From positions 1 to 35,973 of the forward strand of contig JABWCA010000009.1 of the NCBI GenBank assembly GCA_013359345.1: a stretch of DNA of 35,973 bases, written 5' to 3'. This DNA is from Ignavibacteriaceae bacterium. GTDB lineage: Bacteria > Bacteroidota > Ignavibacteria > Ignavibacteriales > Ignavibacteriaceae. The stretch's first letter is position 1, and each line of letters starts with the position of its first letter. The notes beneath the pieces are model-generated. The model saw only the letters and a program-made list of their open reading frames with translations, did no database searches and had not been told where the DNA came from. A program made the position numbers and the translations under genes. Positions 6,889-31,553 of the stretch are shown piece after piece.

Positions 6889-7121
6889 CAGTCGCCTTTA
6901 AATGTTTAAAATTAATATCCGTAAATTTACATAATTCTGAATATCTGAAAATCAGATTTTTTCTTTTCATCAGACCCCCGCGCTTAATTTAGTTCCGGTT
7001 TCATCACCTCTTGTCAATTCACTGTACCATGTTTCATCAGCAGATACCGTTTATCAGACCATCACCGCTCCGGATGCCCGGAATCGTTTTATTTGTATAA
7101 ATAAAGAATAAAAGATTGGAT

Positions 7122-11187: not shown

Positions 11188-13182
11188 ATGTTTAAAATTC
11201 TTTTTTCTCTGTTATTATTAACTGCAGCAGCAACAGGTCAGAACCATGATCTCAAGACTGCAATTGATGATTACAATAAAGGTAAGTACAAGGAAGCCGC
11301 GGTTATTTTTGAAAAATATATATCTTCCGGCACCGGGGAAAAAGATATCTATCTGGCAGCCGCCGAGTGTCATTTAAGATTGAATGATTTCAATAACGCC
11401 ATCATTGTGCTTGAAAAATACCGGAAAACATTCGGTGATGATTATAATACCACGTACACACTTTCTCAGGTTTATGCACGCAATGGGAACTACAGAGAAG
11501 CTGTAAAGCTCTTGATTGAATTGACAAAACTCCACCCCGATTCTTCATCAGCAAAACAACTTCTTTCTGATGTTTTTCTCTCATCAGGTGTTGCCGATTT
11601 TGAAAACAAAGACAGCATTTCAGCCGAAATAAACTTTAAAAATGCATTATTATATGCCCCGTTAAACAAACAAGCGAGAGTTAACCTTCTTCTGCTCCTT
11701 TTAGGATCAAAAAAATATAATGATGCACTTCCTTTTGCGTCAGACGGATACCGTTATTTTAAAGGCGATAATACTTTTGCACTCATGTATTTTGAAAATC
11801 TCATCGGGCTTGAGAAATTTTCAGAAGCTCTGCCTGTGCTTGAGCAAATTGCCTCTGCCAAGCCTGAAGACCTCAGGATACAACTCAATCTCGCTCTGCT
11901 TTACAGATTTAACAATCTGCCTGAAAAAGCTAAACTTACATACGAACATCTCAGAAAGAAATTTCCGGGAAACAAAGAGGTTTATGATTCCGAGATTTCC
12001 TTTTACGAACTCTTCTCTGAAAATGAAAAAATAATCGAACTTTATAAATCCTATCTAGAACTTAATCCTGATGATAAGGAGACCGGGTTACGACTGGCAA
12101 AGAAGTATGAACAAACAGGTAATTTTGAAAAAGCACGTGAAATTTTCAGATCTCTTGACTCTGTGGCTGATGATAACTTCATAAAAATTCTGATTGCAGA
12201 GAACTATTTTCTCGAGGAAAAAAAAGATGAAGCAATCAAAGTATTAAAATCTGTGGTTGAAAGCCGGAGTGCAGATGCAACTGTATATATGCTGTTATAT
12301 GAATATCTTGAAAAAAACGGCAATCACACAGATGCGGTACTTATTATAAGTGAAGGTCTAAATAAATTTCCGGCATCGCTTGAATTGAATCTTGAATCTG
12401 CAAAAATTTATTATGAAGCGGGAAAACCCGATAGTTCTCTCATAAGGCTTGAAGAAATAAGAGGTTTTTCAAAAGAAATTCCCGAAATCCCGTTCTATAT
12501 CGCCCTGATTTACCAGGGGAAAAATGAAATAAAGACTGCAATACAAAACTTTACAAGAGCCATAAGGGGTGCCATAAGGGGTACTGCAGAACTTCAGACG
12601 TCTTTAGCCGGTTCATTTTCCGGTCAGGTTATTACAAACCCCGATAGTGCCGCCGCACTGCAGAAAAAATCAGAAAAATTTAAATTGTATAAAGAGATCA
12701 TCTATTCATCTTTTGCCGGATTATCTCAGGTCTGTAAAGAAAGCGAATTTCTTGATGTTTTAGAAAATCTTATAACAGAATTTCCTCAGGCTGCACTCTT
12801 GTATATTGAAAAAGGGAAATTTTATATGCGGACGGCAAAACCTGAGCTTGCCCGTTCGGAATTTGAAAAAGCAAATATTCTCTCTCCATCCACTAATGAA
12901 GTGCAGCAGGCCCTGGCCGAGTTTTATGAGTCATCCGGCGAATTGGGAAAAGCCCTCGATTCTTACAGACGGGCTGGTTCACTTGATGAGGGAAATCCTT
13001 TCTATTACCGTAAGATAATTGATCTGGCCGCTTTAACCGGGCAACTGAATGAAATTTGCGATTACTGGCTTCAGATATATAAAACAAAAAAAGAAGACAA
13101 ACTGCTGAAAGAGTTTCTGATTGAGGCTCTGCACAAAGCAAAAAGAACAAAGGAGGCGCTTGATGTAATTAACTCAAAATAA
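11188..13182 (+). CDS. Exported TPR-repeat protein
   Basis: About 664 residues starting MFKILFSLLLLTAAATGQ, a signal peptide cleaved near residue 17, followed by tandem tetratricopeptide repeats through most of the length. Recognisable repeat consensus stretches include YNKGKYKEAAVIFEKYI, GNYREAVKLLIELTKLHPDS, GNFEKAREIFRSL and ELGKALDSYRRAGSLDEGNPFYY. Such solenoids bind partner proteins in the periplasm; no enzyme domain is visible. A GTG at 11155 would add 11 residues, but the ATG at 11188 begins a clean signal peptide. No strong ribosome site precedes either. A 12-bp tandem duplication at 12559-12582 gives the local repeat AIRGAIRG. It has no close operon partner and stops 175 nt before the convergent barrel gene. 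Confidence 0.88.
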   Translation: MFKILFSLLLLTAAATGQNHDLKTAIDDYNKGKYKEAAVIFEKYISSGTGEKDIYLAAAECHLRLNDFNNAIIVLEKYRKTFGDDYNTTYTLSQVYARNGNYREAVKLLIELTKLHPDSSSAKQLLSDVFLSSGVADFENKDSISAEINFKNALLYAPLNKQARVNLLLLLLGSKKYNDALPFASDGYRYFKGDNTFALMYFENLIGLEKFSEALPVLEQIASAKPEDLRIQLNLALLYRFNNLPEKAKLTYEHLRKKFPGNKEVYDSEISFYELFSENEKIIELYKSYLELNPDDKETGLRLAKKYEQTGNFEKAREIFRSLDSVADDNFIKILIAENYFLEEKKDEAIKVLKSVVESRSADATVYMLLYEYLEKNGNHTDAVLIISEGLNKFPASLELNLESAKIYYEAGKPDSSLIRLEEIRGFSKEIPEIPFYIALIYQGKNEIKTAIQNFTRAIRGAIRGTAELQTSLAGSFSGQVITNPDSAAALQKKSEKFKLYKEIIYSSFAGLSQVCKESEFLDVLENLITEFPQAALLYIEKGKFYMRTAKPELARSEFEKANILSPSTNEVQQALAEFYESSGELGKALDSYRRAGSLDEGNPFYYRKIIDLAALTGQLNEICDYWLQIYKTKKEDKLLKEFLIEALHKAKRTKEALDVINSK

Positions 13183-13356: not shown

Positions 13357-15123
13357 TCAGAATCTGTAACTCCAGGTAAAACTTCCGGTGTATTCACTGA
13401 ATGTATTTGAATTATTGCCTTTTCCTGAGAAAAACGACCCTCTGAACATTACGCCCACAGTGCTTCCTGTGAACAAAGGATAATTTGACTGAATCACTAT
13501 GACACTTGTTGCACTGGCATCAGAATTAGTAAACGCATAAGAGAGAGAATTGTTTAATTTGTCATCAAGCATTTTGTAATTAACTCTTGCATTCACCGTC
13601 TGGGAGTTATTATTTCCCCGGGGACCCAGGTCAACGGTATTTAATGAAGCAGTGAGGTTTGTACTAAGTTGTTTTGAAAAATTTGTTGTAATACCAAAGT
13701 TATAGCCCTGAGAATTAACTTCATTATCACCTCTTATTCTGCTCTTTGTGGCAAAGGTCTGAGTTGTGATATTTGTATTCAGAGAGTGGCTGAACCCAAA
13801 TGCATCTAACTGATAATTAATGTTTGCTCCCACGTTATATCCCCCGTTATCAACCTTTATGGTATCATTATTGGCATCGTTGAGCATCGAATTAAAATTT
13901 GTATTAACGGTTATACTAAGTGATCTCAAAGGTCTTACTGCAAGAACAAAACCATAGTTATCTCTCACAGTGGTAAAAAGTTTCTGCTGTATTATATTAT
14001 CATTTTGCCTCTGATAATTTGTCTGAACTGTTATTAATCCGCTCAGAACATTAAAGCTCAGTGATCCGTTAATAATCTGTCTGTCATTCAGGATCGAGGC
14101 TATGCCAAGAGATGTATAGCCTGGGCCAACAATAGTATAGGCGAGTCTTGCATTCCCGAGTTGAGAGTTATACCCTAATTCAGTATGAAGAGCATAGTCG
14201 GCATTTGTTGTTATCCTGGGAGTGAATACATCACGCATGAACTCTGGAACATCTTTTGAATCTATCTCATCGCTGTACATATCTTTGGTGAACAGGCTTG
14301 CAGAAAGTTCACTCTTTATTTTGAGCGAATTTTCAAAGAGATTAAGACCCCAGTTCACACCCATGATCAGATTTTCCTCAGGTGTTACTCCAACATAGGA
14401 GGTATCTGCCCTCAAAGACCCCCCTGAACCGGGAATGGAATCTATCTGCTGGAAAATCATTCTGTTGAGTGAATTCTGATCGTCACGGCTTCTTAAAATA
14501 TTAATATCAATATGATCACCACCGCCATCCCCTATTCCGAGTTTCCCTGCAACCACATAACGGGAGTAGGTTGAATTAAACGCCCCGAGCTCTGTGGCTC
14601 TTTGTGTCTGCCCTGCAATAAGCTGAAACCGGAGAATACCAGGGTAAAGCTCCAGCCCGCCGCCTCTGACCATAACATCAGAAAGTGTAAAGCGTGACAT
14701 CTGGTGCGTGAAATCTCCTATATGTGCAACACCCCATCCCCATGCCGGATGCAGTGCTATTGTATTAATATTCTGACGCGCTGCACTTCCTTCTGTAGAA
14801 AGAAAAAGATCAAAGTTTACACTGAAATTATTAAAAAGAGAGATGGTTGGTCTGAAATAGATTCTTCCGGTCTGTCCCGGGCGCCTGCTTTCTTTCCCTG
14901 AAATACCATAAAGTTCACCAAAAGCCCCGAATTCACCTGAAATTCTAACCTGATCAAGCACATCACCCCAGAAATCTGATTCTTCCTCCCCTGCCTGATG
15001 GTATAATTTCATGAATGCCGCAGAATCAAGCGGCGGTTCACCCGGGAAAAGACTTGAATCGATCTGTGAATACCCTGTGAGATTGATAATCATTACGAGA
15101 GTAAAAAGTAAAAGTACTTTCAT
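13357..15123 (-). CDS. Outer-membrane beta-barrel protein of the giant-protein operon
   Basis: A 588-residue protein with a signal peptide (about 1-19, LTGYSQ) and, after a short plug or linker region with PPLDSAAFMKLYHQAGEEE, a long series of amphipathic strands. It ends in WSYRF, the terminal aromatic signature of outer-membrane barrels recognised by the BAM machinery. Strand-like segments such as GRIYFRPTISL, FSVNFDLFLS, FRPTI, SLSITVNTNFNSML and TGSFTWSYRF support a barrel. It is the last gene of the operon: its ATG is 1 nt after the stop of the FN3 gene, with GGAGAG as ribosome site. I infer it anchors or exports the two upstream products. I do not recognise a named family. Confidence 0.8.
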   Translation of the reverse strand: MKVLLLFTLVMIINLTGYSQIDSSLFPGEPPLDSAAFMKLYHQAGEEESDFWGDVLDQVRISGEFGAFGELYGISGKESRRPGQTGRIYFRPTISLFNNFSVNFDLFLSTEGSAARQNINTIALHPAWGWGVAHIGDFTHQMSRFTLSDVMVRGGGLELYPGILRFQLIAGQTQRATELGAFNSTYSRYVVAGKLGIGDGGGDHIDINILRSRDDQNSLNRMIFQQIDSIPGSGGSLRADTSYVGVTPEENLIMGVNWGLNLFENSLKIKSELSASLFTKDMYSDEIDSKDVPEFMRDVFTPRITTNADYALHTELGYNSQLGNARLAYTIVGPGYTSLGIASILNDRQIINGSLSFNVLSGLITVQTNYQRQNDNIIQQKLFTTVRDNYGFVLAVRPLRSLSITVNTNFNSMLNDANNDTIKVDNGGYNVGANINYQLDAFGFSHSLNTNITTQTFATKSRIRGDNEVNSQGYNFGITTNFSKQLSTNLTASLNTVDLGPRGNNNSQTVNARVNYKMLDDKLNNSLSYAFTNSDASATSVIVIQSNYPLFTGSTVGVMFRGSFFSGKGNNSNTFSEYTGSFTWSYRF

Positions 15124-15124
15124 T

Positions 15125-17089
15125 CTACTCTCCTTCCTCTGTTACAGCAACGTAACTGCTCCACTCACTTTCGTTTTCTGAGGTATCAACAGCCCTGACC
15201 TTATAAAAATACTCTTTTGTTCCGCTTTTATCAAGAAAATTAGTTTCATTAAGAGGTTCAGAATTCATTTTTTCATAGTTGCCATTTGGCAGGGATGATC
15301 TGTAGACATTATACCCTTTAAGGTCAGGTTCCACTACTCTGATCCAGTTCAGTTTAACCCCGACCTGAGAATTCACTGCAGTTAAAAAAGGCACAGCCGG
15401 AGGAGCAAAAAGATCTTTCACAGTAACAGGTGCACTTTCTCCAAAACCGCTTGCATTTCCTGAAGTATCAATTGACTGCACCAGATAAGTATATGTCTTT
15501 AAGAGTACACAACTATTATCCGTATAGGTTGCCGGGAAATTTTCCAGCGTTACAAGCAGAACAGGCTGAGCGTCTCCTTCACGGCGGAAGATCTTCATGA
15601 GAGCAACATCACCAGCAGCAGAATTTCCGGATGAAACTTCAACTCTGTTTCCCGGTTTGAGAACAGCTGTAACAGGAGAGGGTGCCGGGGGAGCATCAAC
15701 GTCTGGCACAGTAACAGTCACTATTTCACTTTTCACACTTTCATTTTCAGAGAAATCAACCGATGAGACAGAGAAGTTAATACTGCCTCCTGATGAATAT
15801 CCTCTGCCGGCATAACCTGAGTCTGTAAAGCTTAACGTCTGTGTAAATCCTGCGAGTGGCATTATATCTTTTGTTTCTCCCTTATAAACACGATAACCTG
15901 CCACATCTTTGGAAGAAGATGCCTTGATTGACAACACCACTTTGCCCTGATCAAACTTTATCCCTGCAATTGAAGGCGGTAAAGGCGGGGTTGTATCTTC
16001 AACATATACATTTGCCACACTGCTCAGGGGGCTCTCAGATCCTCCTTTCGAAACTGCTGTAACATAGTAAAAATACTGAACCCCGGATCTTACTGTGCTG
16101 TCACTGAACTGAGGATTTGAATAGGCAATCAGCTGCCTGTTCAACTTAAGTGAATCGCCCGATATATTTTCTTTCCTGTAAAGATTATAACCAGTGATAT
16201 TCTGATCAGGAGAGATATTCCAGTAAAGAAGCACTGTTCCGGAGTTCAAACCTGCATTAAGCCCTCCGGGCGGTTCCGGAGAACTCTCCTCATCATTAAG
16301 CAGCACAACAATTTTTGACGGATTACTCTCTCTGCCTGCCGGATCAACTGCTGAAACATAATACTCATATCTGATATTTTCATCCGGTCTGAGATCAGTA
16401 AAAACTTTTTCAGAGTTGTCATCCCTGATTATTATACCCTGATTGATCTGGCTGAATGCACCTTCTCCGGTTTTTCTGTAAATCCTGAAATTTGTTGCAA
16501 TATTGTTTTTATCCTTCTCCCATGAAGGGTAATCCCATTTGAGAGTGACAACACCTTTTACTGATTTCACAGATAAATTCTCCGGGGAAGCCGGTAAAAC
16601 CGGTGTGGCGGTTACCTTCTTTGTGAATTCGCTTAATTTTTCACCCTCATAAGAGTAATATTCAATTTTGTATTCGTAAGATTTGCCTGCAACTACATCT
16701 GAATCCTCATACAGTCTTCCCGCTACAAAGGCAGCACCCGGGAAAAGGAGTGTCAGGATAGTGGAATTAAAACTGTTTCCCTTCAGAGCTCTTATAAGCT
16801 GAATCTCATTATCTGCATCAACAATTCTGTTTATGGCAGCAAAATCAGACCCGATTATGGAAATGGCCTCGGCTGAACCCTCAACCGCTTTCAGAGGCAG
16901 GGTATCATTCAATACTTTATACTCACTCCCCTCAGATTTTCTTGAGATGATGATATACTCGCCTCTTTCAGGTGCAGTTGTAAAATATAAAATTGCCTTT
17001 GATTCATTGTACATGTAAATAATATCTCGCTCCTGAGCACTGAGACTGATTACAATTAAGGCAAAGAAAGATAAAAGCAGTTGAAACAT
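15125..17089 (-). CDS. Exported fibronectin type III repeat protein
   Basis: A 654-residue protein with a signal peptide (MFQLLLSFFALIVISLSAQ) and about five FN3-type domains. Hallmarks are VxLxWD/N strands (VVTLKWDYPSW, TVLLYWNISPD, VKLNWIRV), GYNLYRKE / GYRVYKGE / GYNVYRSS strands, and Y-x-Y-x-V-x-A-x-D/S endings (YEYYVSAVDPAGRES, YFYYVTAVSKGGSES, YFYKVRAVDTSENES). The start is fixed by context: ATG at 17089 overlaps the giant-gene stop as TGATG and has GGAGGAGG about 8 nt upstream. An upstream ATG at 17107 would add six residues but has no ribosome site. No T9SS tail is present. FN3 arrays typically act as extracellular spacers or binding modules. It is the middle gene of the operon, translationally coupled to both neighbours. 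Confidence 0.88.
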   Translation of the reverse strand: MFQLLLSFFALIVISLSAQERDIIYMYNESKAILYFTTAPERGEYIIISRKSEGSEYKVLNDTLPLKAVEGSAEAISIIGSDFAAINRIVDADNEIQLIRALKGNSFNSTILTLLFPGAAFVAGRLYEDSDVVAGKSYEYKIEYYSYEGEKLSEFTKKVTATPVLPASPENLSVKSVKGVVTLKWDYPSWEKDKNNIATNFRIYRKTGEGAFSQINQGIIIRDDNSEKVFTDLRPDENIRYEYYVSAVDPAGRESNPSKIVVLLNDEESSPEPPGGLNAGLNSGTVLLYWNISPDQNITGYNLYRKENISGDSLKLNRQLIAYSNPQFSDSTVRSGVQYFYYVTAVSKGGSESPLSSVANVYVEDTTPPLPPSIAGIKFDQGKVVLSIKASSSKDVAGYRVYKGETKDIMPLAGFTQTLSFTDSGYAGRGYSSGGSINFSVSSVDFSENESVKSEIVTVTVPDVDAPPAPSPVTAVLKPGNRVEVSSGNSAAGDVALMKIFRREGDAQPVLLVTLENFPATYTDNSCVLLKTYTYLVQSIDTSGNASGFGESAPVTVKDLFAPPAVPFLTAVNSQVGVKLNWIRVVEPDLKGYNVYRSSLPNGNYEKMNSEPLNETNFLDKSGTKEYFYKVRAVDTSENESEWSSYVAVTEEGE

Positions 17090-20000
17090 CAGCGGATCCT
17101 CCTCCATGTAATATCACTTCTGATCAACCCGTCCTGAGTGACTGCATAAGCACCTGCCCATATTTCCTGATTGGATCCTAGTGTTGGTCTTACCAGACCG
17201 CCGTTTCCGATATTAGTCCACCCGGTGATATCCTGTCTGTTCATTTTTGTTCCAAGACAATAAAATACATTATAACTAAGTGATGATTGTACTGGTGTAA
17301 TCTCCAGTCCCTGGGTACCAAAACCTAAATTAATCAGCCCCGAGATACCGGGTTTGAAAAGTACATCAGAGATGGTCACCGGACCCACAATATTAAAATC
17401 TCCGGCAATATTGTTATTATTTACTGCCCTGATATTAATATAAAACCCTGTATTTTTAGGAAGCAGTGAAATTATACCAACCGGTAATCTTATTATTCCG
17501 TTGTTGGGTATCGTGCTGACAAAATCCAGCCTCTTCCAGTTAATAATGCCGCTGCTGCCCGGATTTGTACCGATTGAATACTGATAATGATTTATTCCCG
17601 ACTCAATATCAACGGCAGTTCTCCTGAAAAACAGGTTTACGTTTCCACCCGCAATATTACCGGAGCCTCCGGGAGGAATTCCCATGAAGAAGTTCACAAC
17701 CGGCTGAGAAGGTTTTGAATTGTCATCAAAAGCATAAGAAGATGAAATCAATATTGCACTCCGCGCATTTGTATTTTTTATGCTTCTCACTTCAAAAACA
17801 AGTTTTGTATTACCTGAAAGTGCAATATTTGGAGGCAGCTGAAATGTTACGGATGTGTTCATTCCATTATTGACCCACCCGGCAGTAAGTGAGGTTGTAT
17901 CGTTTGTACGGTATACCCGGTACTCGTAACCAATTATACCTTGTGAATTATTTACACGCCATTGTAATTTATATCTTGGTCTGCCATCCTGAGGTCTTTC
18001 GGTACCGGGAAGCGGAATTCCAACTGAACCTGTCATTGCCCCTGAAAAAGATTGTGATGTATTTACTGCCTGGTTTATTACCGGTTCAATCAAAACAGGA
18101 ACGGCCGGGAGAACTGTATCAATCTGTATACGGGCGGTGGAACCACTCTGACTGGTTAGCCCCGCCTGATTTGTTGCTCTTACATTTACATAATAAGCGG
18201 CATTATTTTGAAGATTCAGCCCCTGCAGTATAAGTGATGTCAAAGATCCCACATTTTGCCAGTCACGAACCTGATTACCGCCGGGTGTTGTACCTATTGA
18301 ATACTGATAACCGGTGATTCCTGATTCAGGATCATTGGATGACCAGTTAACACGAATATTATTTGTCTGAAATAATAAATAATGAGATGAACTTCCTGCC
18401 CCTGAAAGTGTGATATCAGGAAGAGTGACAACCGGTAAAGTTGGCGGTGTCTGATCAGGCGGAGTAGATTGAGTTGTAGCTCCGACAAAATTAGAAGCAC
18501 CTACAGGCCCGATGTACATCAAAGGGCTCATCAGAGTTCTGTAGCTCACAAACCCGGCTTTATTTCTTACCCTGACGTGAATAGTCCTCCTGACTGATTC
18601 ACCGTCCACTTTATCTGCAAATAAATAACTTGAAATTTCTGCCGACTTGCCAAGGCTAAGAAATCCTGTGGTTCCGGGATTTGGTGAAGATCCATCTGCT
18701 ATTTTAACAGCAATCTCCGAGATTCCGTCAGGATGGGAGGCAGTAAACCTGTAGTTCTGCTTATTATAAAATCTGTTGTTTGCATAAGTCATTGTAATAT
18801 CAGAAACTGAGGGTAAAGTCAGACTGCGTGCAGCCAGATTTCTTTTCTGGATCAATTGCGTCAGACTTGGAGCGGTGTTTTGTACTTCGGGTGCCTGATC
18901 CGCCTTCCAGTATATATATCTGTCAACCACATCATACAAATTCACTGTCATCTCTTGACGTCTTTCAAAGATTGCATTAAGCTGGTCTGAGTAAAACTGA
19001 TGGTTTTGCATGACAGGATTAAATTTGGAATTAAACTCCCGCCTCAAACCGGCCATAAGTGAATCTGTTTTTGCCAGAACGAGCTGCAAGGCGGCTCTTG
19101 GTATATCAAGATATAGTTTTGCGGATTCATCTTTGGCCAGCCTCCATTTCTGATCATCAGGGAAATTTATCCACTGAGCAAGGAATTCTGATTCAGAATA
19201 ATTTAATCCGGCAAGTCGCTTAACCCTCCACCAGCGTGAAAATGCTCTTGCAGCGAGATCCTGACCTGAATAATATCTTGGTTTTGGTGTATTCACGCCT
19301 ATACCCCAACCCGAAGTTGGTTCTGTTACATACTCTATGATATCCTGTTTTGAAAAGGCTTCATGTGCAGCAGCCCAGTTTGAGTTGAAGAAATCAGATT
19401 TTGCATCCTGTTTCTCTCTCCAGTAGTAATAGCCAACCAGTCCGTAAAAATCCTGAACAGATTCCATCAGAATTTTATAATTACTGCCGAGCTTTATGAA
19501 TTCATTATCCGGGGCTGAAAACAGATTATCAAAACGCTGTATAGCCGATTCGATTTGTGAAAGATTGTTCTTAAACAATGAATCATATCTTGATGCTTCT
19601 TCTCTCAGTCTGTTCATGTGCGATGCATTCGACTGTTCAAAACCTGAATTAAGATTAAAATCAGGACCACCGATTAATACAGGAACTTTTTCACCGTTAA
19701 TTATTGTGAAAGATGTAATCTGCGGCTGACTGAAATTAGCAGTCTGAAGCGGATTTGAAAGTTCAGGAAGCTGATATGCCGGCGGAACGGTTATTGTGGT
19801 GCTCAGGGTGGCAAGCTTGTTTGCCAGAGCTGTAAGATTCTGGTTAAACTGAACTATGGCACCATCAATCTGCGGTATTTTTTCAAGTATCTGATTCCTC
19901 AGATCAGTAAGCGCAGCTGCATCTCCCGTTAATATTTCCTTAAGCGTGTTCAGATATGTTATCATAAACGGATTAATAGCAGGATTAACTCTGGCAGTCT

Positions 20001-23000
20001 CCTCATTAATCATAGTAGTTATCCAAAGCCTCCACTCATTGGCAAGGGCGGTGTTAAAAGATCTTGCACGCATGCAGATATCAAGCATCGCCTGTGATGC
20101 CTGCTGGATAGTCTGGTCGCTGATTCCAACCAACGGTTGTGGTCTGTTCTGCATGGCAACACGTGCAGCCTGTGATGCCTGAGTCAGATCATTCCCGATG
20201 TTTCTTGCCTCTTCAATCAACTGATCCATCGCTTCATCCCTTCCAAAGCCTCCTCTGAAACCATCCGAACCAATCCTCATCCATACGCTGCCGTCCCAGC
20301 TTATAAAAAGCACAGTTATTCTGAGTGAGGCACCTCCGTAAAGGTAAAAATCAGGGCTGCCAAGAAGAACACCCTTAACTGTGCCTCTGGCTGCAGCAAT
20401 TCCGCCAAACACTTTTGCATCAATAAACACTTCAAAATAGGCACCCCAGTCAGCACTTGGCCTGTACCATACTTTAAGTTCCATACCGGTCTGAACACTC
20501 ACAATCCAGAAATTAAAGCCCTGTGACATACTCGTGGAGGCATAAAAACCTTTGCTTCCGGTGTAAAAATCACCCGACCCTCTTATCATATTGATTATTG
20601 TATAATTTGCTCTGCCAACCACACCCCAGTTATCCTGGGCATAAATGAAAAAGTTCAGTCTTGCATCGGCATTTATCAGCGAGGCCATCCGTAATTCAAC
20701 ATTAAGGGATCCCTCGGCAAAGGCATGTGTAAACCCGACGGTGAGACTTATATTGCCCTGGATTCTGTCATTCTGCCCAAGGAACACCGCTCTTCCTGTA
20801 AGGTTAAAATTTGTTTCGGAAATTGTAAGAAGAACTCTCCCGCGTGCCGCATTACTTGTCCCGAATTCAAAGGCTCCGTAAATAAGGACAGCAAATGACC
20901 CTGGTGAGGCATATATTGCTCCTTTAGTATTGTTGTCAAGACCGCATCGCTGCTTTACAAGTTCAATATCTTCGTTAGCAGGATTCAGGAAAAATCCGCC
21001 GCCCAGCCCGGTGAGAAATATACCCGGTCCTATAGAGATTCTGAGCCCGTCTGTTACAGCGAGGAAAATGCCCGCACTAACTTTATTCTCTGCTCTTGCA
21101 AGTTTACCTATTACCTGAATGTCATACTGATTTTTTATTTTCCCGTTTCCGGCAAACATCAGATAAAAGCTGTTGCCCTGAGTTTTGTAAGTAATATCAG
21201 CAGCAAATTTAACCATCCCCGATTTCAGATTAAACTGAGCATTGCGAACAAGAAGGTTTAACCCGTTATCAGATTTTCTTGTATAAACCAGAAACTCATC
21301 AACACCGCCGCCGCCTATTCCGGCAATATCTATCGTTCCGCCAAATCTCACAAAACTCTTAACCGTAACATTTTCATTTGTGACGTTGCCTGAACTGCTG
21401 CCTGATGCCAGGTTCCCCGATCTTACACTTATTGTTGTTTCGCTTGTGCTCATTGCAAAGGAATTAACGGAAACACTGACTATATTTTGTATGTTAAGTG
21501 AGCCGCCCGTAATCATTCCGTTGAGATTCTCAATTGTACCGTCAGACCTTATACCCAGATTCTGGAAATTCAGACTCCCTGCAACAGCATTAAAGTTTGC
21601 TGCGGCACCGCCGCTCATGGTAATCTTAAAATTACCATTCTGAAGTGATTCAGACTGGAGGCTGCTGATATTAAGCCTGAGATTTCCGAATTCTATATCG
21701 TTAAGTCCGGAGCTGGTTACTGATCCAAAAGAATACCCGCCTGTGAATGAAAGTGTAAAGCCGGGGGTAACCGTATTTCCTGACTTACTGCCAAACCTTA
21801 TGTATTTATCAGGATTATTCTGGAAATAAAAGGTGGAAACAAGTTCAATGTTTGAATTTCTGTAATTATCAAGATTCAGATTAATTGCCAGATACTGCGG
21901 GTCAAATTTACCCACCCAAAGGTTGAATTCTGTTCTGTCATTATTTCCGATACCATATTCTTCATTAAAAACTACAACTTTTGCCCCGCCTGAAATACTC
22001 CCGTCTGTTCCTACTTTTACATTAAAAAACTGACTGCTTGTATCTGCCGGTGCAGGCAGTTTAACAAAACCGTGCACATCAAGGTAATAAATGTTACCGG
22101 CCGATGTTACCGCAAGTTTTGAAAGTGCAAGACGGTTTTCGACAACGTAAGTGGTCTGAGTTAAGAGATTTGCTCCTGACATACTTATGCTGCCGTTAGT
22201 ACCCACCCTGAAACCATAAAACTGACTCTTCTTACCCATGAATGTAATTTCACCACTCATCGACATATACAGAACATCGTTCTCATAACTGAAAGAGACA
22301 GCCTTATAATTTTCAATATTTTTAAGTTCAAACTCAGCCTTGAAAAGTCTGAATCTTTGCGCTGCAGATGGCAGGGTAATATCGATCTGAGGAACGGTTA
22401 TCCCGCTTTTGTTGATCCTCAGTCCGGCAAATGAGACATTAAAATCCTGAGAAAGTGACGGCGCTGAAATGATTCCGCTCATCTGAAGTTCAAAATCATT
22501 TTCACTGAATGAAAGAGAAATTGCCGGCTGGCCGTTTATACTCTGAGGCTGAAATCTTGCCACTGATACAGGAATCTGAGTTCCCGGTATGTGTGAAAAA
22601 TCGAATCCGAAATTAAATGTCCCGTTCTGATACATGGCTGTGAAATGGATGGCAGAAGTATCTGTGCCGTTTCTGAAGAAACCTGATTTAATATCTCCGC
22701 TCAGCTTAAAACTTTTTGAAGCACCAAAATCAAAACTAAGCCCCTGAAGCTTAAACTCGGCAAATGATCCGAATTTTACTGATTTAATATATCCGGTATT
22801 AGCCAGATATGTTTGCGAAAAATTGCCGAGTGAAACCGTTCCTGAAAGACCCTGATCATTTATTAAGATCCTTTCAATATTTGCCTCCATACCACCCAGA
22901 GCCTGAGGAAGTGAAACCAGCCCCGATGTTGTGAATTCGTAACCGCTGCCTTCTCTTGCAAATCCGAGACTTGTAAGTTTGAGGGGTATTCCCCGCGGAC

Positions 23001-26000
23001 TCAGATCAAGCAAAGGTGCCTGAGGGTTTGATGCAGCAACATTTATGCCTCCGCTTACAAATTCAAACGTACTCTGGTTCACAACTACATTGAACTGAAT
23101 ATCAAACTCTGGAGACGAAGGCTGATTATATTTTAAGGCCGGTACAACAAGTTTTACTGTCTGACCTTCCTTATTACTGATTCTGAGTCCGTTATCTGTC
23201 AGTTCCGTTGCTATCAGAGTATTATCACCTTCCCGGAGTATCAGATATGCTGCATTTGCAGAGCCCAGGGGAAGACGCTCAGGAACAGTTACTGCAGCCA
23301 GAAGATTATCTGGAACAAATCCTGTGCTGTCAAGAAATGCTATTCTTTCGCTGTTTTTGTAGAAAGACATTCTTCCGCTGCGTACTTTGAATCCGGAATA
23401 GCCTAGTTCACAGTTATCCTCAAATTTTAAGACAAGGGTGTTAAAATCCTGATTATTGTATCTGAATGACATTCCCGTTTCACCGCTCAGCGCAATTTTA
23501 TCAGATGCAATTGTTACAGTTGATGGCATTGTTAAAAGCAGTGAGTTATTTTGGGTGATCGAAAAATCGGGAGCCACTGCCGCCCATTTTAATCCACCCG
23601 TTTCCAGACCCACATAAAACGCAAAAGCACTGTTTATGGTGACCGAACCGCTTTTATATGTGAAATCATTAAGATCAATAAGGAAGTTATCAAATGTTGC
23701 AGCAGCATTTCCCCCGCCCTGGAAATTTAGTGCCGATGTTCCTGAAAACCTGAAGCCATCCTTGTTTAAAGAGGCTTCATTTACTGTAAAATTAAAAACA
23801 GGCTTTGCTGCAGGCAGCCCTATTGTGAACGGATCCGTGATCCCTATGCTGCCGTCAAGTATTTTTCCTTCAAGAAGATCGAGCGAGATATTTCCCGCGC
23901 CGGTTATAGTGTTTCCTTCACTTAAAGGCATTGAAAGATTTGCCGCAAGATCTATTCTCACATATTGTGAATCTTCTTCACTACTGAAATGGAGGTCTGA
24001 AGTTGTGACGTTTAAGACAGCCTTGCCTAATTTGAAATCGCATTCAGGCACAAACCCGAGAATACTTCCGGAGATCATTCCTTTACTGTTTAATTTTAAA
24101 TCATTATCACCGAGCACAGTTGATCCGTTGCTGTTCTGGCATCTTAAGACCTCAGGGAGTACGAGATTTCCCTTTATCCTTACGTCAACAACCTGTTCAT
24201 CATTCTGATCCCTGCTCAGAGAACCGCCCACTTCTTTAAGGATATAACCGCCTCCGCTGCTCCCGAAAGGAATGAATAACTGGCTTCCGGGAAAAGTCAC
24301 TTTTTCAATCGTTCCGGTTACATTGCTGCCGTCAAAACCGGCATCCAGAACATAGACTTTAAGACCTTTTAACTGCTGTGGGAACTTGCCGGGAAAACCA
24401 GGGAATGTGAGCTCAAAATCGTATGAAAATGCAAAATCATCCCAGCTTATTGTGAGGGGATCAAAGATGTTAACTGAGAAGTTTGGCATTCTGAAATTGA
24501 GCGGTTTCAATCCGAATCCTTTAAAATCTATTGCCGGAAGTGAAAGGTTCGGCAGCGATAGCGCAGGGAAATTGAGTCCCAGTTTACCGATTCTTATATC
24601 ACTGAGATTGGGTATGCTGAAATTCAATTCCGGAAAATTAAGATTAATGTCAAGATCAATATCAAAATCCCAGCCCAGTTCCGGTGAAAATGATAACCGG
24701 GGCAGTCTGAAATCGAGCAAGTCAAGATTTAACTTCCCGAATGAAAGTTTTGGCAGTGAATCAGGGAGATCAACACTGAAATTGATCACTTCAAAAGAAT
24801 TATTGCTCACTCGCAGAGTTGTTGAGGCTCCGTAAGATTTGGTTTCAGTCAGTTTCAGCCTTAACCCGCCCGTTACTGATATATCAAAATCGGGTACACT
24901 GAAATTCACCAGATCAGTATTTACGGTTCCTGTTACGTTAGTTAATTCAAGTGCAAGACGGTCTGAATTCTCAACGAGGAATATTTTTTTATCCGTATTA
25001 AAATTAAATTCAGACTTCAGATATCCGGTCTCTTCTATCTGCAATGCAAGATTTTCACTCCCCAGTTCGGTTTTAAAGAGTGTGAGTATCCCCCCGAACT
25101 TAACTTTGGAAACACCATTTTCATTTTTGTATTCAAACCGCTTGAGTTTATAGGGGATCCCGGCTTTAGTCAAATCAAAGAGGCTGAGTTTTTCACCCGG
25201 AATTTCAACTTCGATCCGCCCAAGTTGAAGACTGAAATCCGTTTTATCAACAGTTATGTCAAATTCAATCAATAACTCCGGTATTACAGTACCGCTGAAT
25301 TTCAGTCCGGGAAATACTGCAGGTACCGGCACATTTTCCCTGGTTCTGATTCTTATATTATCACCTGCCTCTTCAAAATTAACCAAAAGCGAGTCATTGC
25401 TGTCTCTTAACTGAATATAACCTAAATCGCTTCTTGGGAGCGGAAGTTTTTCCGGCAAAAATGTTGTGACAAGATTGATGGTTGAAATGTTAAAACCGGA
25501 TGATGAGAGGGTGGCAATTATATTGTTATTGAGGAGAAAATTAATTTCACCTGATGTGATTTCCCGTTCAGTGAGTCCTAATTTGAATCCGTTTATGAAT
25601 TCAGCTCTCAGATCGTAAGTTTTTCCGTCATATCTGAGGTATGCGCTTCCTGTGCCAGAAATTGCAAGTCCGTCTTTGGTCAGTTCGAGAGTGTCGGGCA
25701 TGTTTATCATCACACCGTTTGTCTGAGGCGGGCTGTTATTCTTATCAGTGAATGAAATTACAGGATTTCCTCCTTCCAGAAGTGCAAGAATCCCGAACCC
25801 ATTATCAAACACGATTCTCCCCCCTTGCATTCCGGTTTCAGAAAAACTGAATTTTACCTCATCAAAAGTTACACCTGTGCCGCCCCCCTGACCTATATTT
25901 GCGGTGCTTCTTCCGTTAATTTTTATTCCGTCTTTGCCTATTTGCATCGAGCTCAGATTAAAACTCATCACCGGATTTTCTTTAGGATAACTAAGGGTGT

Positions 26001-28629
26001 ATGGAGTTGATATCTCACTATTAAATTCATTCAGGGTATTTCCCAGCACATCATAAACAAAACTTACATCAGCCTGAAGCTCACCGCCGGCAAAACGGCT
26101 GAGATCAACCCTTGCTGAACCACTCAGAATCACTTTCTGCCCATCCTGTCCGGAACTGAACTGCAGACCGGAGTTAACCACAGTAAAAGAAAGACTTCCA
26201 ACTTTCAGGCTGCATGAAGGAACAATATTCTGAACCTCGCCCGTAATATTCCCAGAGCCGGTAAGCAGGAGGGTTGAACTCATAAGGTCAAGCTCTGGTG
26301 CGGTACCTTCACATCCGAATGCTCCCTGCGGAAGTATTAATCCGCCTTTTAATCTCAGTTCAGGATTAAACGAAAATCCGCCTGAACCAAAAGGAGCTTC
26401 AATCTGACCGGAGAGTTCCCTGACTTTTAATTTTACTCCCCCTGCAAGAGGCATCTCCGCTCCTGTGAATGTAACCGGAGGGATGTTAATGCTTAAACCA
26501 TTGAAATCAAGATTTGCATTCAGATTAATTGCAGGATTAAGTAACTCGTCAGGTGTCCCCTGTGGCAGATTCGGCAGGCTTATTTTCACTCCGAAATTCA
26601 TATTCAGGTTTCCCCCCAGAAGATTATTAATCAGGTTGGTAAGAGAAACAGCAGCGCCGCCCGAGCTTCCGTTCAGAAATTCCAGCCTGATCCCCTGAAA
26701 TTCAAAAAATCTGCTTCCGGTACCCGTTACCGGGTTAAGACCATTGAAAGAAGGCAGAGTAATTCCTGCAGGTGTTAGTGTGACACCTTCAAATGGCCCG
26801 ATTGAAAAGCCGCCGAAACCGGGGAACCTGTATGCCATGTTAAAATCAATTCCGAAATCCCACTGCCCGTTCAGGAATGTAAGACTATTTAACTGAACTC
26901 CGCTCAGATCAATATTCATAAACCCGAGGCTTAATGAATTCTGACTTGTAGTGTTAACCGGAGTTGTACTGATTACTGAGAAAACGCCATTCCCGATATT
27001 GGCAGCCATGGCTGCCCTGTAATTCAGAAAACCCGGTAAATTAATCCCGAACTCAGAATTCAGATTAAGCTCAACAGATGAAACGCCTGAGACCGGATTA
27101 AAAGAGAAATTGCCGGTCACATTTCTGAGTTTTAGTTTTATATATTCGGATGCGGCCGGAAACGGCAATATATCCAGTGGGGTATTACAATTAATGGTTC
27201 CGCTCATTTCACCGTCTGATGAAATAGTCACCCCGGTTATTTCGCAAACAGAATAATTATTGAATACAACAAGTTCACCACTCAGCCGCAAAAAAGCATT
27301 CGGATATGAAATATTTAACCTTGTGAGATTCAGTTTTGCCGTTTCATTACCAAATGAGTAAACGGGTAATGCTGATGACCCTTCAAATTCAAGTGTGCCA
27401 GTGAGTGCTCCTGTTGCACTGACAGTCAATTCACCCTGAGGATTAAGAGGTGTAACAACCCCAGGTAATTCTATTCTCCCGCCTATCCGGATTCCATTAA
27501 ATGGTGTAAATTCAAGTAATTCAGGTTTAAAAAACTCTGAGATCAATGATGCCGGTAAGAAATCAGGCTGAAGGTTTGTGTGAATCCGTCCGGCCGTGAA
27601 ATTGAAATTTGTATAACTGCCTTTAACAAAAGTCAGATTTTCAACTGTAACGCTGATGACCCTTTCTGCTCCGTCAGAAAGTCTCAGGCGTAAATCAGTG
27701 GTTCCGTTCATTACAAAATTTTCTGCATCCTGAGTGATCTGTAATCTGTCATAAGAATCAAACCATGCAACATTCCTTATCAGATTTACAGCCAGAAACG
27801 GCAGCGCATTAGGATCCTGTTCACCGTAATCATAAATAAAACTCCATTGCTCACTGCTTCCGTTGTTTGAGGTGAGCGGATTACCGGGATCATCAGTGAC
27901 TCTTACTCTCCATGCATACTCCTTCCCCTTTACAAGCGGGAGTGCATCCTGAGGATACTGATAGAATGTTCCCGATACCAATGTTGCCTCATGGTGAGGC
28001 GGATTTGCAGAGAGTGCCTGGCTTATCGTCTGGCCGCTGAGTCTCTCAACTATCAGAAGATTATAATTAGCGTTAACAGTTGCCGGCAGATTAACCGGCG
28101 CCCACTGAAAAATAGGATATTGCTGATTAAATGATGCGCCGTTTGCCGGGGCAAAAAGCACAGGTGCATCAGGATAAATTATGTTTATAACACCGTAAGA
28201 CTCGGTTAAAACCTGATTGTTCGTGCTGATTACGCTTGAAATAACATCAAATGTTCCTTCGGGGAAACGGTTTGTTCTTAATACCTGCTGATAAGTTGTA
28301 TTATCGAATTTTACGTCTCGCCAGTCAATAACCTTTGTGCCGGCATAGACTTTACTGGCAGGCCCTGCGGGAAAACTTTCAATTCCGCTCCTCGCTCGTA
28401 CAAGTTCACGGTTTTGAGAATCCTTTATTACAAGCTGCAGACGGTAATCAACCGGAGAGGTTCCAAGATAATTTACCGTAAAGACCGATGCCTCAGGGTT
28501 TCTTGTCCACTCTGACAAAAATGATGTTGGTGAAGGATCAAGTACTAAAAGTGAATTCCACATGTTGTTCTGGGCATGGCTAAGCACAGTTAGTATCATT
28601 GCTATAAAAAGGGTGTAAACTCTTTTCAT
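17089..28629 (-). CDS. Giant exported multidomain beta-rich protein
   Basis: An unrecognised protein of 3,846 residues, one of the largest expected in a bacterial genome. Start 28629 gives the signal peptide MKRVYTLFIAMILTVLSHAQ; an ATG at 28680 would add 17 polar residues. Visible parts: Ig/FN3-like N-terminus (about 25-240, including a YPIFQWAPV strand and EYAWRVRV); beta-rich segments to about 580; a duplicated module (about 590-1180 and 1320-1902); more beta-rich sequence with a Gly-rich TGLGGGFFLNP stretch near 2545; a helical, coiled-coil-like domain (about 2798-3245); and FN3-like repeats to the end with paired YQYSIGTTPGG / YQYSIGTNPGS motifs. Cysteine pairs suggest disulfides outside the cytosol. 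There is no T9SS tail and no enzyme motif. The N-terminal part may relate to TANFOR-type domains and the Gly-rich part to DUF6603-type proteins, both uncertain. First gene of the coupled operon. Confidence 0.85.
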   Translation of the reverse strand: MKRVYTLFIAMILTVLSHAQNNMWNSLLVLDPSPTSFLSEWTRNPEASVFTVNYLGTSPVDYRLQLVIKDSQNRELVRARSGIESFPAGPASKVYAGTKVIDWRDVKFDNTTYQQVLRTNRFPEGTFDVISSVISTNNQVLTESYGVINIIYPDAPVLFAPANGASFNQQYPIFQWAPVNLPATVNANYNLLIVERLSGQTISQALSANPPHHEATLVSGTFYQYPQDALPLVKGKEYAWRVRVTDDPGNPLTSNNGSSEQWSFIYDYGEQDPNALPFLAVNLIRNVAWFDSYDRLQITQDAENFVMNGTTDLRLRLSDGAERVISVTVENLTFVKGSYTNFNFTAGRIHTNLQPDFLPASLISEFFKPELLEFTPFNGIRIGGRIELPGVVTPLNPQGELTVSATGALTGTLEFEGSSALPVYSFGNETAKLNLTRLNISYPNAFLRLSGELVVFNNYSVCEITGVTISSDGEMSGTINCNTPLDILPFPAASEYIKLKLRNVTGNFSFNPVSGVSSVELNLNSEFGINLPGFLNYRAAMAANIGNGVFSVISTTPVNTTSQNSLSLGFMNIDLSGVQLNSLTFLNGQWDFGIDFNMAYRFPGFGGFSIGPFEGVTLTPAGITLPSFNGLNPVTGTGSRFFEFQGIRLEFLNGSSGGAAVSLTNLINNLLGGNLNMNFGVKISLPNLPQGTPDELLNPAINLNANLDFNGLSINIPPVTFTGAEMPLAGGVKLKVRELSGQIEAPFGSGGFSFNPELRLKGGLILPQGAFGCEGTAPELDLMSSTLLLTGSGNITGEVQNIVPSCSLKVGSLSFTVVNSGLQFSSGQDGQKVILSGSARVDLSRFAGGELQADVSFVYDVLGNTLNEFNSEISTPYTLSYPKENPVMSFNLSSMQIGKDGIKINGRSTANIGQGGGTGVTFDEVKFSFSETGMQGGRIVFDNGFGILALLEGGNPVISFTDKNNSPPQTNGVMINMPDTLELTKDGLAISGTGSAYLRYDGKTYDLRAEFINGFKLGLTEREITSGEINFLLNNNIIATLSSSGFNISTINLVTTFLPEKLPLPRSDLGYIQLRDSNDSLLVNFEEAGDNIRIRTRENVPVPAVFPGLKFSGTVIPELLIEFDITVDKTDFSLQLGRIEVEIPGEKLSLFDLTKAGIPYKLKRFEYKNENGVSKVKFGGILTLFKTELGSENLALQIEETGYLKSEFNFNTDKKIFLVENSDRLALELTNVTGTVNTDLVNFSVPDFDISVTGGLRLKLTETKSYGASTTLRVSNNSFEVINFSVDLPDSLPKLSFGKLNLDLLDFRLPRLSFSPELGWDFDIDLDINLNFPELNFSIPNLSDIRIGKLGLNFPALSLPNLSLPAIDFKGFGLKPLNFRMPNFSVNIFDPLTISWDDFAFSYDFELTFPGFPGKFPQQLKGLKVYVLDAGFDGSNVTGTIEKVTFPGSQLFIPFGSSGGGYILKEVGGSLSRDQNDEQVVDVRIKGNLVLPEVLRCQNSNGSTVLGDNDLKLNSKGMISGSILGFVPECDFKLGKAVLNVTTSDLHFSSEEDSQYVRIDLAANLSMPLSEGNTITGAGNISLDLLEGKILDGSIGITDPFTIGLPAAKPVFNFTVNEASLNKDGFRFSGTSALNFQGGGNAAATFDNFLIDLNDFTYKSGSVTINSAFAFYVGLETGGLKWAAVAPDFSITQNNSLLLTMPSTVTIASDKIALSGETGMSFRYNNQDFNTLVLKFEDNCELGYSGFKVRSGRMSFYKNSERIAFLDSTGFVPDNLLAAVTVPERLPLGSANAAYLILREGDNTLIATELTDNGLRISNKEGQTVKLVVPALKYNQPSSPEFDIQFNVVVNQSTFEFVSGGINVAASNPQAPLLDLSPRGIPLKLTSLGFAREGSGYEFTTSGLVSLPQALGGMEANIERILINDQGLSGTVSLGNFSQTYLANTGYIKSVKFGSFAEFKLQGLSFDFGASKSFKLSGDIKSGFFRNGTDTSAIHFTAMYQNGTFNFGFDFSHIPGTQIPVSVARFQPQSINGQPAISLSFSENDFELQMSGIISAPSLSQDFNVSFAGLRINKSGITVPQIDITLPSAAQRFRLFKAEFELKNIENYKAVSFSYENDVLYMSMSGEITFMGKKSQFYGFRVGTNGSISMSGANLLTQTTYVVENRLALSKLAVTSAGNIYYLDVHGFVKLPAPADTSSQFFNVKVGTDGSISGGAKVVVFNEEYGIGNNDRTEFNLWVGKFDPQYLAINLNLDNYRNSNIELVSTFYFQNNPDKYIRFGSKSGNTVTPGFTLSFTGGYSFGSVTSSGLNDIEFGNLRLNISSLQSESLQNGNFKITMSGGAAANFNAVAGSLNFQNLGIRSDGTIENLNGMITGGSLNIQNIVSVSVNSFAMSTSETTISVRSGNLASGSSSGNVTNENVTVKSFVRFGGTIDIAGIGGGGVDEFLVYTRKSDNGLNLLVRNAQFNLKSGMVKFAADITYKTQGNSFYLMFAGNGKIKNQYDIQVIGKLARAENKVSAGIFLAVTDGLRISIGPGIFLTGLGGGFFLNPANEDIELVKQRCGLDNNTKGAIYASPGSFAVLIYGAFEFGTSNAARGRVLLTISETNFNLTGRAVFLGQNDRIQGNISLTVGFTHAFAEGSLNVELRMASLINADARLNFFIYAQDNWGVVGRANYTIINMIRGSGDFYTGSKGFYASTSMSQGFNFWIVSVQTGMELKVWYRPSADWGAYFEVFIDAKVFGGIAAARGTVKGVLLGSPDFYLYGGASLRITVLFISWDGSVWMRIGSDGFRGGFGRDEAMDQLIEEARNIGNDLTQASQAARVAMQNRPQPLVGISDQTIQQASQAMLDICMRARSFNTALANEWRLWITTMINEETARVNPAINPFMITYLNTLKEILTGDAAALTDLRNQILEKIPQIDGAIVQFNQNLTALANKLATLSTTITVPPAYQLPELSNPLQTANFSQPQITSFTIINGEKVPVLIGGPDFNLNSGFEQSNASHMNRLREEASRYDSLFKNNLSQIESAIQRFDNLFSAPDNEFIKLGSNYKILMESVQDFYGLVGYYYWREKQDAKSDFFNSNWAAAHEAFSKQDIIEYVTEPTSGWGIGVNTPKPRYYSGQDLAARAFSRWWRVKRLAGLNYSESEFLAQWINFPDDQKWRLAKDESAKLYLDIPRAALQLVLAKTDSLMAGLRREFNSKFNPVMQNHQFYSDQLNAIFERRQEMTVNLYDVVDRYIYWKADQAPEVQNTAPSLTQLIQKRNLAARSLTLPSVSDITMTYANNRFYNKQNYRFTASHPDGISEIAVKIADGSSPNPGTTGFLSLGKSAEISSYLFADKVDGESVRRTIHVRVRNKAGFVSYRTLMSPLMYIGPVGASNFVGATTQSTPPDQTPPTLPVVTLPDITLSGAGSSSHYLLFQTNNIRVNWSSNDPESGITGYQYSIGTTPGGNQVRDWQNVGSLTSLILQGLNLQNNAAYYVNVRATNQAGLTSQSGSTARIQIDTVLPAVPVLIEPVINQAVNTSQSFSGAMTGSVGIPLPGTERPQDGRPRYKLQWRVNNSQGIIGYEYRVYRTNDTTSLTAGWVNNGMNTSVTFQLPPNIALSGNTKLVFEVRSIKNTNARSAILISSSYAFDDNSKPSQPVVNFFMGIPPGGSGNIAGGNVNLFFRRTAVDIESGINHYQYSIGTNPGSSGIINWKRLDFVSTIPNNGIIRLPVGIISLLPKNTGFYINIRAVNNNNIAGDFNIVGPVTISDVLFKPGISGLINLGFGTQGLEITPVQSSLSYNVFYCLGTKMNRQDITGWTNIGNGGLVRPTLGSNQEIWAGAYAVTQDGLIRSDITWRRIR
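17092..17105 (-). promoter_or_regulatory. Strong ribosome site for translational coupling
   Basis: The minus strand reads GGAGGAGGATCCGCTGATG, in which TGATG joins the stop of the giant gene to the start of the FN3 gene. The purine-rich site lies inside the last codons of the giant gene, so it can only be used by ribosomes arriving at, or initiating near, its end. It decides the FN3 start at 17089. Confidence 0.8.
22925..26862 (-). repeat. Internal protein duplication within the giant gene
   Basis: Residues about 590-1180 and 1320-1902 of the giant protein align over their length. Anchors are W590/W1320 (G-x-WDF-x-ID), cysteine pairs C773/C806 and C1497/C1530 (32 residues between in both), KENPVMSFN against AKPVFNFT, LPEKLPLPRS against VPERLPLGSA, and LFDLTKAGIPYKLKRF against LLDLSPRGIPLKLTSL. 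The offset is 722-730 residues. DNA similarity is low, so the duplication is old. Confidence 0.85.
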
Positions 28630-29366: not shown

Positions 29367-31553
29367 ATGCAGCTCAAGAATCCAAAGATCATCAGGCAGC
29401 TCCTGGTTATTAATGCAATCGCAGGGTCAGTTCTGCTTCTGGCAGGAATTCTCCTGAATATCCCCTACAATACCCTCGACCACAAAATTAACGATCTGTT
29501 CTATTCATTTGCCCTGAGCCAGGGGAAAGGGCCGCAGATAAGTAACCGTGTTGTGCTCCTTAACATAGATGACCAGACCTATAAACTGATAGGACGTAAC
29601 TCACTCGACCGTAAAGTCATAGCCGATGCAAATAACACTCTGGCTATGTATACTCCTAACGCTGTGATTTATGACATTATTTTCCCGCAGCCTTCTGATC
29701 ACGAAGCTGATTCTGCGTTTTCAGAGTCGATCTCAACGCTCGGCACAGTGTATCTGCCGGCCGGTTTTGCTCTGGATAAAGAACCGAAGGAGTTCAGGTG
29801 GGGCAATGGCGTTTTTTATGAAAGGCTGCATGATGAATATCTTCAGAAGCCGGAAGAGCTGAATTCAGGATCACCTTATGTCGCTTCAAGAGCGCTGGCT
29901 CAGTACGATGATTTTGCGGCGGCGGCTCACAGCAGCGGACATATTAGCTCCTTCCCCGATGCAGACGGAATTTACAGGCATTATCCTCTCCTGGTAAAAA
30001 TTGATTCTCTCTTTTTTCCGACTGTGACACTCCAGGCATTCCTTGATAATATGGGTATCGCCTTCTCTGAGCTTAAGATTAACTGGGGTGAATCAATAAC
30101 CGTGCCCGCTAAAAAAGAAAGTTTTCTCTCTCAGGATCTCAAAATACCGATAGATGAATCGGGTAATGTGTTTATTCCCTACCCCATAAAATGGAACGGG
30201 TTTAAGAATAAAATGTCGCTCCACAAAATGATGGAAAGAAGCCTTGATGAAGATCTGAATGATGAAATGACCGAAACTTTTGAAGGCAGCTATGTTTTTG
30301 TGGGTGATATTTCAAGCGGAATTTCTGATCTTGGAAATACAACTCTTGAAGCCGATGTCCCTCTTGTTTACATTCACTCATCCCTCATGAATTCAATGTT
30401 AACTGGGAATTTTTATTCCAAATGGAGTTCTCTGAGCGTCTGGCTCTCTCTTATACTCGTATTAGTTCTCCTTACACTCTCGGCTTTGCCTAAAAATAAT
30501 ATCTTTCAGCATGGGGTTTTTCTGGGCGGAATTCTGATATTCACGGGGATTACTTTTTACAATATTCTGAATTTTCAACTGATGCCGCTTGGCACTATTC
30601 TTGTTATGGTCACCCTCTTTTACGCCACTCAGACCATCATGCTCCAGCTTATTATTTCACGTCAGGAAGCCTTTATTAAAGATGCCTTTTCACGATATCT
30701 GAACGCGAAAGTGATAGACAGACTTATAGATGATCCCGAATTGCTGAAACTCGGCGGTGAAGAGAAGGAAGTGACTATACTGTTTACCGATATAGCCGGT
30801 TTCACATCCATCTCGGAGCAGCTCAAACCGGCTGATCTTGTCTATCTGCTGAACAATTACCTCACTGAAATGACATCAATAGTGACACTCAACGGCGGAA
30901 TGGTGGATAAGTTCATCGGCGATGCAATCATGGCAGAGTTCGGAGCACCGCTGAAGATGGATAACCCGGCTGATGGCGCAATTGCCACAGGGCTCATGAT
31001 GCATGATAAACTCAAAGAGCTCAACGCGCAGTGGCAGAAACGCGGACTCCCCCCCGTCTGGATGCGTGCAGGAATTAACACCGGCAGAGTGATAATCGGG
31101 AACATGGGCTCTGAGCAGGTCTTTGATTACACTGTGATTGGTGACCCGGTAAATCTCGCTTCGCGCCTTGAAGGTGCAAATAAATACTACGGAACACACC
31201 TTATGATATCGGAATCGACATTCAACATAATGTCAAAAGATAAATTCAGATACCGGATACTCGATTGCATTAAGGTCAAAGGAAAGGATAAACCCGTAAA
31301 AGTATACAACATCTACGGAAAAACCGAAGATCAGATACCTCAGTCAGAAATTGATTATTGCAGTTTATATGATCAGGCCTTTGAACTTTATCTTAAGATG
31401 GATTTTGATTCATCAGTTGAACTGCTCAAAAAATGCCTTGAGATTAAACCGGATGATAAGGCCGCTTCAGAAATGATTATCAGAAACAACTATCTTATTG
31501 CGGTTCCTCCCCCGCCCGATTGGGACGGGTCTTTTACCATGACAAGCAAGTGA
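29367..31553 (+). CDS. CHASE2-domain transmembrane adenylate cyclase (class III)
   Basis: A 728-residue membrane sensor predicted to make cAMP. Order: N-terminal transmembrane helix (about 14-34), periplasmic CHASE2 sensor (about 40-340, with NRVVLLNIDDQTYKLIGR and NAVIYDIIFPQPSDHEAD), three transmembrane helices (about 350-425), and a class III catalytic domain (about 466-645). Metal-binding D475 (FTDIAGFT) and D519 (KFIGDAIMAEFG), purine-selecting K515, and transition-state residues N596 and R600 (DPVNLASRLEG) are present, so it should be active, most likely on ATP. A C-terminal helical tail (about 655-715, EIKPDDKAA) resembles one or two TPR units. The ATG lacks a clear ribosome site. It stands alone, divergent from the giant operon, so its effector cannot be read from context. 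Confidence 0.94.
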   Translation: MQLKNPKIIRQLLVINAIAGSVLLLAGILLNIPYNTLDHKINDLFYSFALSQGKGPQISNRVVLLNIDDQTYKLIGRNSLDRKVIADANNTLAMYTPNAVIYDIIFPQPSDHEADSAFSESISTLGTVYLPAGFALDKEPKEFRWGNGVFYERLHDEYLQKPEELNSGSPYVASRALAQYDDFAAAAHSSGHISSFPDADGIYRHYPLLVKIDSLFFPTVTLQAFLDNMGIAFSELKINWGESITVPAKKESFLSQDLKIPIDESGNVFIPYPIKWNGFKNKMSLHKMMERSLDEDLNDEMTETFEGSYVFVGDISSGISDLGNTTLEADVPLVYIHSSLMNSMLTGNFYSKWSSLSVWLSLILVLVLLTLSALPKNNIFQHGVFLGGILIFTGITFYNILNFQLMPLGTILVMVTLFYATQTIMLQLIISRQEAFIKDAFSRYLNAKVIDRLIDDPELLKLGGEEKEVTILFTDIAGFTSISEQLKPADLVYLLNNYLTEMTSIVTLNGGMVDKFIGDAIMAEFGAPLKMDNPADGAIATGLMMHDKLKELNAQWQKRGLPPVWMRAGINTGRVIIGNMGSEQVFDYTVIGDPVNLASRLEGANKYYGTHLMISESTFNIMSKDKFRYRILDCIKVKGKDKPVKVYNIYGKTEDQIPQSEIDYCSLYDQAFELYLKMDFDSSVELLKKCLEIKPDDKAASEMIIRNNYLIAVPPPPDWDGSFTMTSK

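Follow-up and report, generated by a model that had tools for sequence, protein, structure and literature searches.

A four-gene module that encodes a giant exported protein, an FN3 protein, a predicted outer-membrane barrel and a TPR protein was found in the window, i.e., the whole stretch of 35,973 nucleotides that was analysed, which is one whole contig of an Ignavibacteriaceae genome of 454 contigs. The module most likely builds a very long surface protein structure and, judged from linkage and co-inheritance, the four genes almost certainly form one functional unit.

Gene organization in the window

The original prediction had described three same-strand genes as an operon, and this operon is real: giant, FN3 protein and barrel follow one another in this order on the minus strand. 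The number of genes had to be raised to four, as the TPR gene belongs to the set too. The features are as follows:

28629-17089, minus strand: giant exported protein, 3,846 aa (open reading frame; orthologues at the same place in 34 loci)
27820-28572, minus strand: N-domain of the giant, residues 20-270 (in all giants with the N-terminus covered by sequence)
25123-27297, minus strand: 725-aa unit A, residues ~445-1169 (internal profile-profile match, unit HMM)
22930-25122, minus strand: 725-aa unit B, residues ~1170-1900 (internal profile-profile match, unit HMM, all-beta AF2 model)
20356-21252, minus strand: conserved beta domain R3, residues ~2460-2758 (sequence conservation)
18127-18378, minus strand: C-terminal Ig/FN3-like domain, residues 3418-3501 (PF25788, E 6.4e-7)
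17089-15125, minus strand: FN3 protein with its start at TGATG, 654 aa (GGAGGAGG upstream; orthologues adjoin the giant)
15123-13357, minus strand: predicted outer-membrane barrel, 588 aa, C-terminal WSYRF (sequence), 26 strands (model)
11188-13182, plus strand: TPR protein, 664 aa, with export signal (convergent with the barrel)

Both junctions were read as originally described. At the TGATG junction ATGGAGGAGGATCCGCTGATG, the TGA of the giant (17091-17089) and the ATG of the FN3 gene (17089) have a common A, and the GGAGGAGG site lies 8-9 nt 5' of this ATG. Because of this overlap and the position of the GGAGGAGG site, the FN3 start was placed at M7 of the mechanical open reading frame, which gives 654 aa. 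At the 1-nt gap between the FN3 and barrel genes, the TAG stop is followed by a single A and then by the barrel ATG. The N-termini of the giant, the FN3 protein and the barrel (LSHAQ, LSAQ and GYSQ) look like cleavable signal peptides, in agreement with the export signals that had been assigned to them by reading the sequence. In none of the three was a T9SS tail found, as had also been claimed, when searched with the Por_Secre_tail, CHU_C and type B models of Pfam and NCBIfam at E 0.1.

The organism itself uses T9SS tails, as a neighbouring gene of the window (7116-8387, plus strand), which encodes a BNR/Sortilin-like protein, matches Por_Secre_tail (PF18962). This gene and that of an exported FGE-sulfatase-type protein (5256-6035, minus strand) are ordinary in the group.

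Conservation of gene order

Homologues of the barrel, the giant and the FN3 protein were searched in 59 relatives, where the matches fell at the same places; linkage was read from 20-kb stretches and named contigs, and loci were counted by contig. The order giant-FN3-(TPR)-barrel on one strand was found in 34 contig-distinct loci. They come from Ignavibacteriales, Melioribacteraceae and further families of this class, and one of them, L158, is a Gemmatimonadota contig; in addition, L160 has FN3 and barrel genes, and L157 has an FN3 gene and a weaker barrel match. The same order in so many loci shows that the gene set is not due to chance, although the count of 34 does not equal that of independent events because it was made by contig in related genomes. 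A rotated order, barrel-giant-FN3-(TPR), was present in 8 loci from other classes of Bacteroidota, with the TPR gene after FN3 in the three loci where the DNA extends far enough. An early reading in which FN3 had been lost in these classes was discarded, as longer DNA showed FN3 3' of the giant. Hence the predicted co-occurrence of the genes in order holds, and scattered homologues were not found.

Rearranged or split cases were seen in G012, G018b and the genus g89. In the latter, a 6.4-kaa giant and its FN3 gene lie far from any barrel, so that the tight coupling that had been postulated is usual but not absolute. In L191 and L174-L175, giants of ~6,400 aa, in which the 725-aa unit occurs up to five times, adjoin FN3 and have no barrel beside them. 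No further gene recurred consistently in the flanks of the module loci.

The TPR gene accompanies the module in 23 loci: it is convergent with the barrel in the window and in five relatives, lies on the same strand between FN3 and barrel in 14, and is 3' of FN3 in three. It is a separate gene whose product has a Sec signal, as read from its sequence, which suggests a periplasmic location. Searches of a defence library returned a generic TPR match alone.

Co-inheritance of the module genes

Pairwise distances of the barrel and the giant N-domain were correlated across 26 loci (r=0.87), as were those of FN3 and giant (r=0.76) and of barrel and FN3 (r=0.66); none of 2000 permutations reached the r of any of the three pairs, and the correlations partly reflect the common descent of related sequences. 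In G018 and G038, which carry two subtypes each, the barrel and giant of a locus resembled those of other loci with this subtype more closely than the second copy of their own genome. Among the 297 genomes of the phylum that were surveyed, a strong-class barrel was present in about 70, and in all 19 of those that encode a 725-aa unit. These data support the proposal of a cell-envelope assembly that includes a barrel of its own, and show its genes to be co-inherited.

Architecture of the giant protein

The giant consists of an N-domain, tandem units of ~725 aa, R3 and a C-terminal extension with Ig-like domains. Units A and B are alike (profile-profile E to 5e-59), and their number is usually 2, as in the window giant, with ~1.4 in G062 and 5 in G070, a 6.4-kaa relative. 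Lengths reach 6,423 aa, and shorter giants of ~1,400-2,200 aa are devoid of the 725-aa unit. R3 was detected in every long giant with sequence for this region and in some shorter giants, and links both (E 2e-9).

The N-domain is fused to the N-terminus of the barrel in one clade. Short proteins consisting mainly of an N-domain are encoded beside the barrel in L093 (13084-14721) and L135 (7758-8756), as if this domain also worked as a separate subunit. Its first half is distantly related to TANFOR (TIGR02542), with sub-threshold matches in 4 of 29 relatives (best E 3.7e-8); every match was below the curated cut-off, which was exceeded in none of 297 genomes, and we regard the N-domain as a distant TANFOR relative. 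DUF928 (PF06051) was rejected, with a best score of 24.6 bits compared to a gathering score of 26 and a match to the second, Ig-like half alone.

The 725-aa core had no match in Pfam, NCBIfam or PDB sequences, and PDB sequence searches with profiles of the giant, the N-domain and the barrel gave nothing significant. Thus, the giant could not be assigned to a characterised family with another function, and no known export signal besides the Sec signal was found in it. An AF2 model of residues 1170-2330 was all-beta (58 percent strand, pLDDT 76.8, pTM 0.40), and core strands alternate in hydrophobicity, with a mean odd-even hydropathy difference of 2.48 vs 1.64 in shuffled sequences. Foldseek matches of the core to Rhs and DDB1 (probability <=0.2, TM <=0.08) and the best viral one (probability 0.57, TM 0.10) were rejected as noise. 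As Foldseek produced no meaningful match for this core (pTM 0.40), a filament shape is tentative.

The barrel and the FN3 protein

AlphaFold2 modelled the barrel from a 25-row alignment with 26 long strands (pLDDT 81.7, pTM 0.65). Its best PDB folds in Foldseek were MtrB (6r2q_B, top match, TM 0.47), FimD, PapC and AlgE, which suggests that the barrel is a wide channel, without its family being given by these fold matches; porins were among its further neighbours. The window barrel had no sequence match in Pfam, NCBIfam or PDB, and one distant relative showed weak, generic barrel matches. For the FN3 protein, matches were obtained to PF18370 and to FN3 linkers known from carbohydrate-active proteins.

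Comparison with known systems

The original prediction knew of no named system of this composition, and none turned up in Pfam, in NCBIfam, among PDB sequences or in the open-licence literature searched, which yielded no description of such a module. SprB-SprF and TXISS resemble it in outline and differ from it in their defining features. In SprB-SprF, an adhesin with a type B CTD is handled by a PorP-like barrel and the T9SS (PMC9143113). Both there and in the module, a giant repetitive protein is encoded beside a dedicated barrel, which anchors it at the surface in SprB-SprF and may do so in the module; however, SprF/PorP is a 14-strand barrel of the FadL family, whereas the module barrel is predicted to be 26-stranded and has no family match, and T9SS-tail models did not match the giant, the FN3 protein or the barrel. 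TPR parts go with outer-membrane barrels in TXISS and in exopolysaccharide export, and TXISS/Slam combines a TPR part with a Sec signal, an outer-membrane barrel and cargo alongside (PMC8406197). The barrel there is, however, a 14-strand DUF560 with mainly lipoprotein cargo (PMC8406197), whereas the TPR protein of the module is encoded by a separate gene and no Pfam match to DUF560 was obtained for the barrel or 20 relatives.

The chaperone-usher barrels FimD and PapC share with the module a wide barrel fold and, if the module works as proposed below, a surface filament, but their cargo is pilins instead of the one giant chain proposed here, and usher or chaperone families of Pfam and NCBIfam had no match in the module proteins or the barrel relatives. 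MtrB has 26 strands, the number predicted for the module barrel, and was the top Foldseek match. No Pfam match to the MtrB/PioB family was found for the barrel or its relatives, and the four module proteins contain zero CXXCH haem motifs.

Proposed function and alternative explanations

For the location of the giant, the direction of its transport, the mechanism, the function and the role of each partner, we infer the following. All four proteins would reach the periplasm via their Sec signals, and the wide barrel would serve as a dedicated outer-membrane exit and/or anchor. The N-domain of the giant would dock on the periplasmic side of the barrel, with the TPR protein as a periplasmic adaptor that guides or holds the giant there and the FN3 protein as an accessory surface or adaptor subunit, while the 725-aa units would be length-setting spacers in an all-beta filament. 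If the units stacked with a rise of 4.8 A per strand, 2,300 aa would by our own estimate reach well beyond the width of the periplasm. It is quite possible, at somewhat less than even confidence, that the barrel provides export, anchoring or both for the giant, with the TPR protein as adaptor and the FN3 protein as accessory. Linkage, the co-occurrence of unit and barrel, the distance correlations, the N-domain-barrel fusion, the wide-channel folds, the TPR gene and the variable unit number argue for this; the g89 pair without a nearby barrel, the giant core's want of a structural match, a giant in which Sec is the one export signal recognised and an MtrB TM of just 0.47 argue against it, and the Ig-like N-domain could be a generic adaptor. 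The adhesive or scaffold role and the fixed ratio that were first proposed are conjectural.

The all-beta core with alternating hydrophobic strands is also compatible with a giant that never leaves the periplasm and acts there as a bridge or scaffold, e.g., with a hydrophobic beta groove along which lipid or glycan would reach a wide barrel in the manner of TamB-TamA or Lpt-LptD. LptD is likewise 26-stranded, and the N-domain is probably periplasmic, because it stands before the barrel in the fused clade. We consider such a bridge unlikely, as the giant had no profile or structural (beta-taco) match to TamB, LptA or AsmA, its length reaches thousands of residues, and a patchy distribution with <=3 copies per genome fits an accessory trait; no TamB was found in the organism's own genome. 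Similarly improbable is a barrel that acts as a small-molecule or polysaccharide pore or exporter, with giant, FN3 and TPR proteins surrounding it as a complex for surface capture or as a matrix. AlgE, MtrB and porins among its Foldseek neighbours, the matches of the FN3 protein and the pairing of TPR and barrel, which is typical of exopolysaccharide exporters (PMC8406197), are consistent with it, but the module lacks synthases and glycosidases as well as a TonB plug and haem motifs.

An even less likely reading takes the module as the outward-facing portion of a sensor that spans the envelope. Clusters with N-domain, FecR and CHASE2/cyclase proteins contain a barrel of 800-930 aa that is related to the module barrel, and in the window the giant has a CHASE2/cyclase gene immediately upstream; yet in none of the other loci read was this gene seen beside the four-gene module, in which a FecR gene was not found either. 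CHASE2 was accordingly rejected as a fifth member. In the window (29367-34305, plus strand) it is divergent from the giant and followed by a TPR protein gene whose product looks CHAT-like at its C-terminus. The clusters themselves (L131, L132, L133 and L134), with an N-domain protein, a FecR-domain protein, the 800-930-aa barrel and CHASE2 plus adenylate/guanylate cyclase, are distinct from the module and look like a trans-envelope sensor; barrels of their class recur across the phylum.

Returning to export and anchoring by the barrel, a more specific form of it, which we hold to be rather doubtful, is that Bacteroidota and Gemmatimonadota have an undescribed outer-membrane system for T9SS-independent export and display, in which a translocon of 26 strands and its TPR adaptor would move and anchor single chains of 1,400-6,400 residues recognised by their N-domain. 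The giant core and the 26-strand barrel represent two protein families absent from the libraries searched, and the module is a testable candidate for placing very large proteins outside the cells of T9SS-bearing phyla without a T9SS tail.
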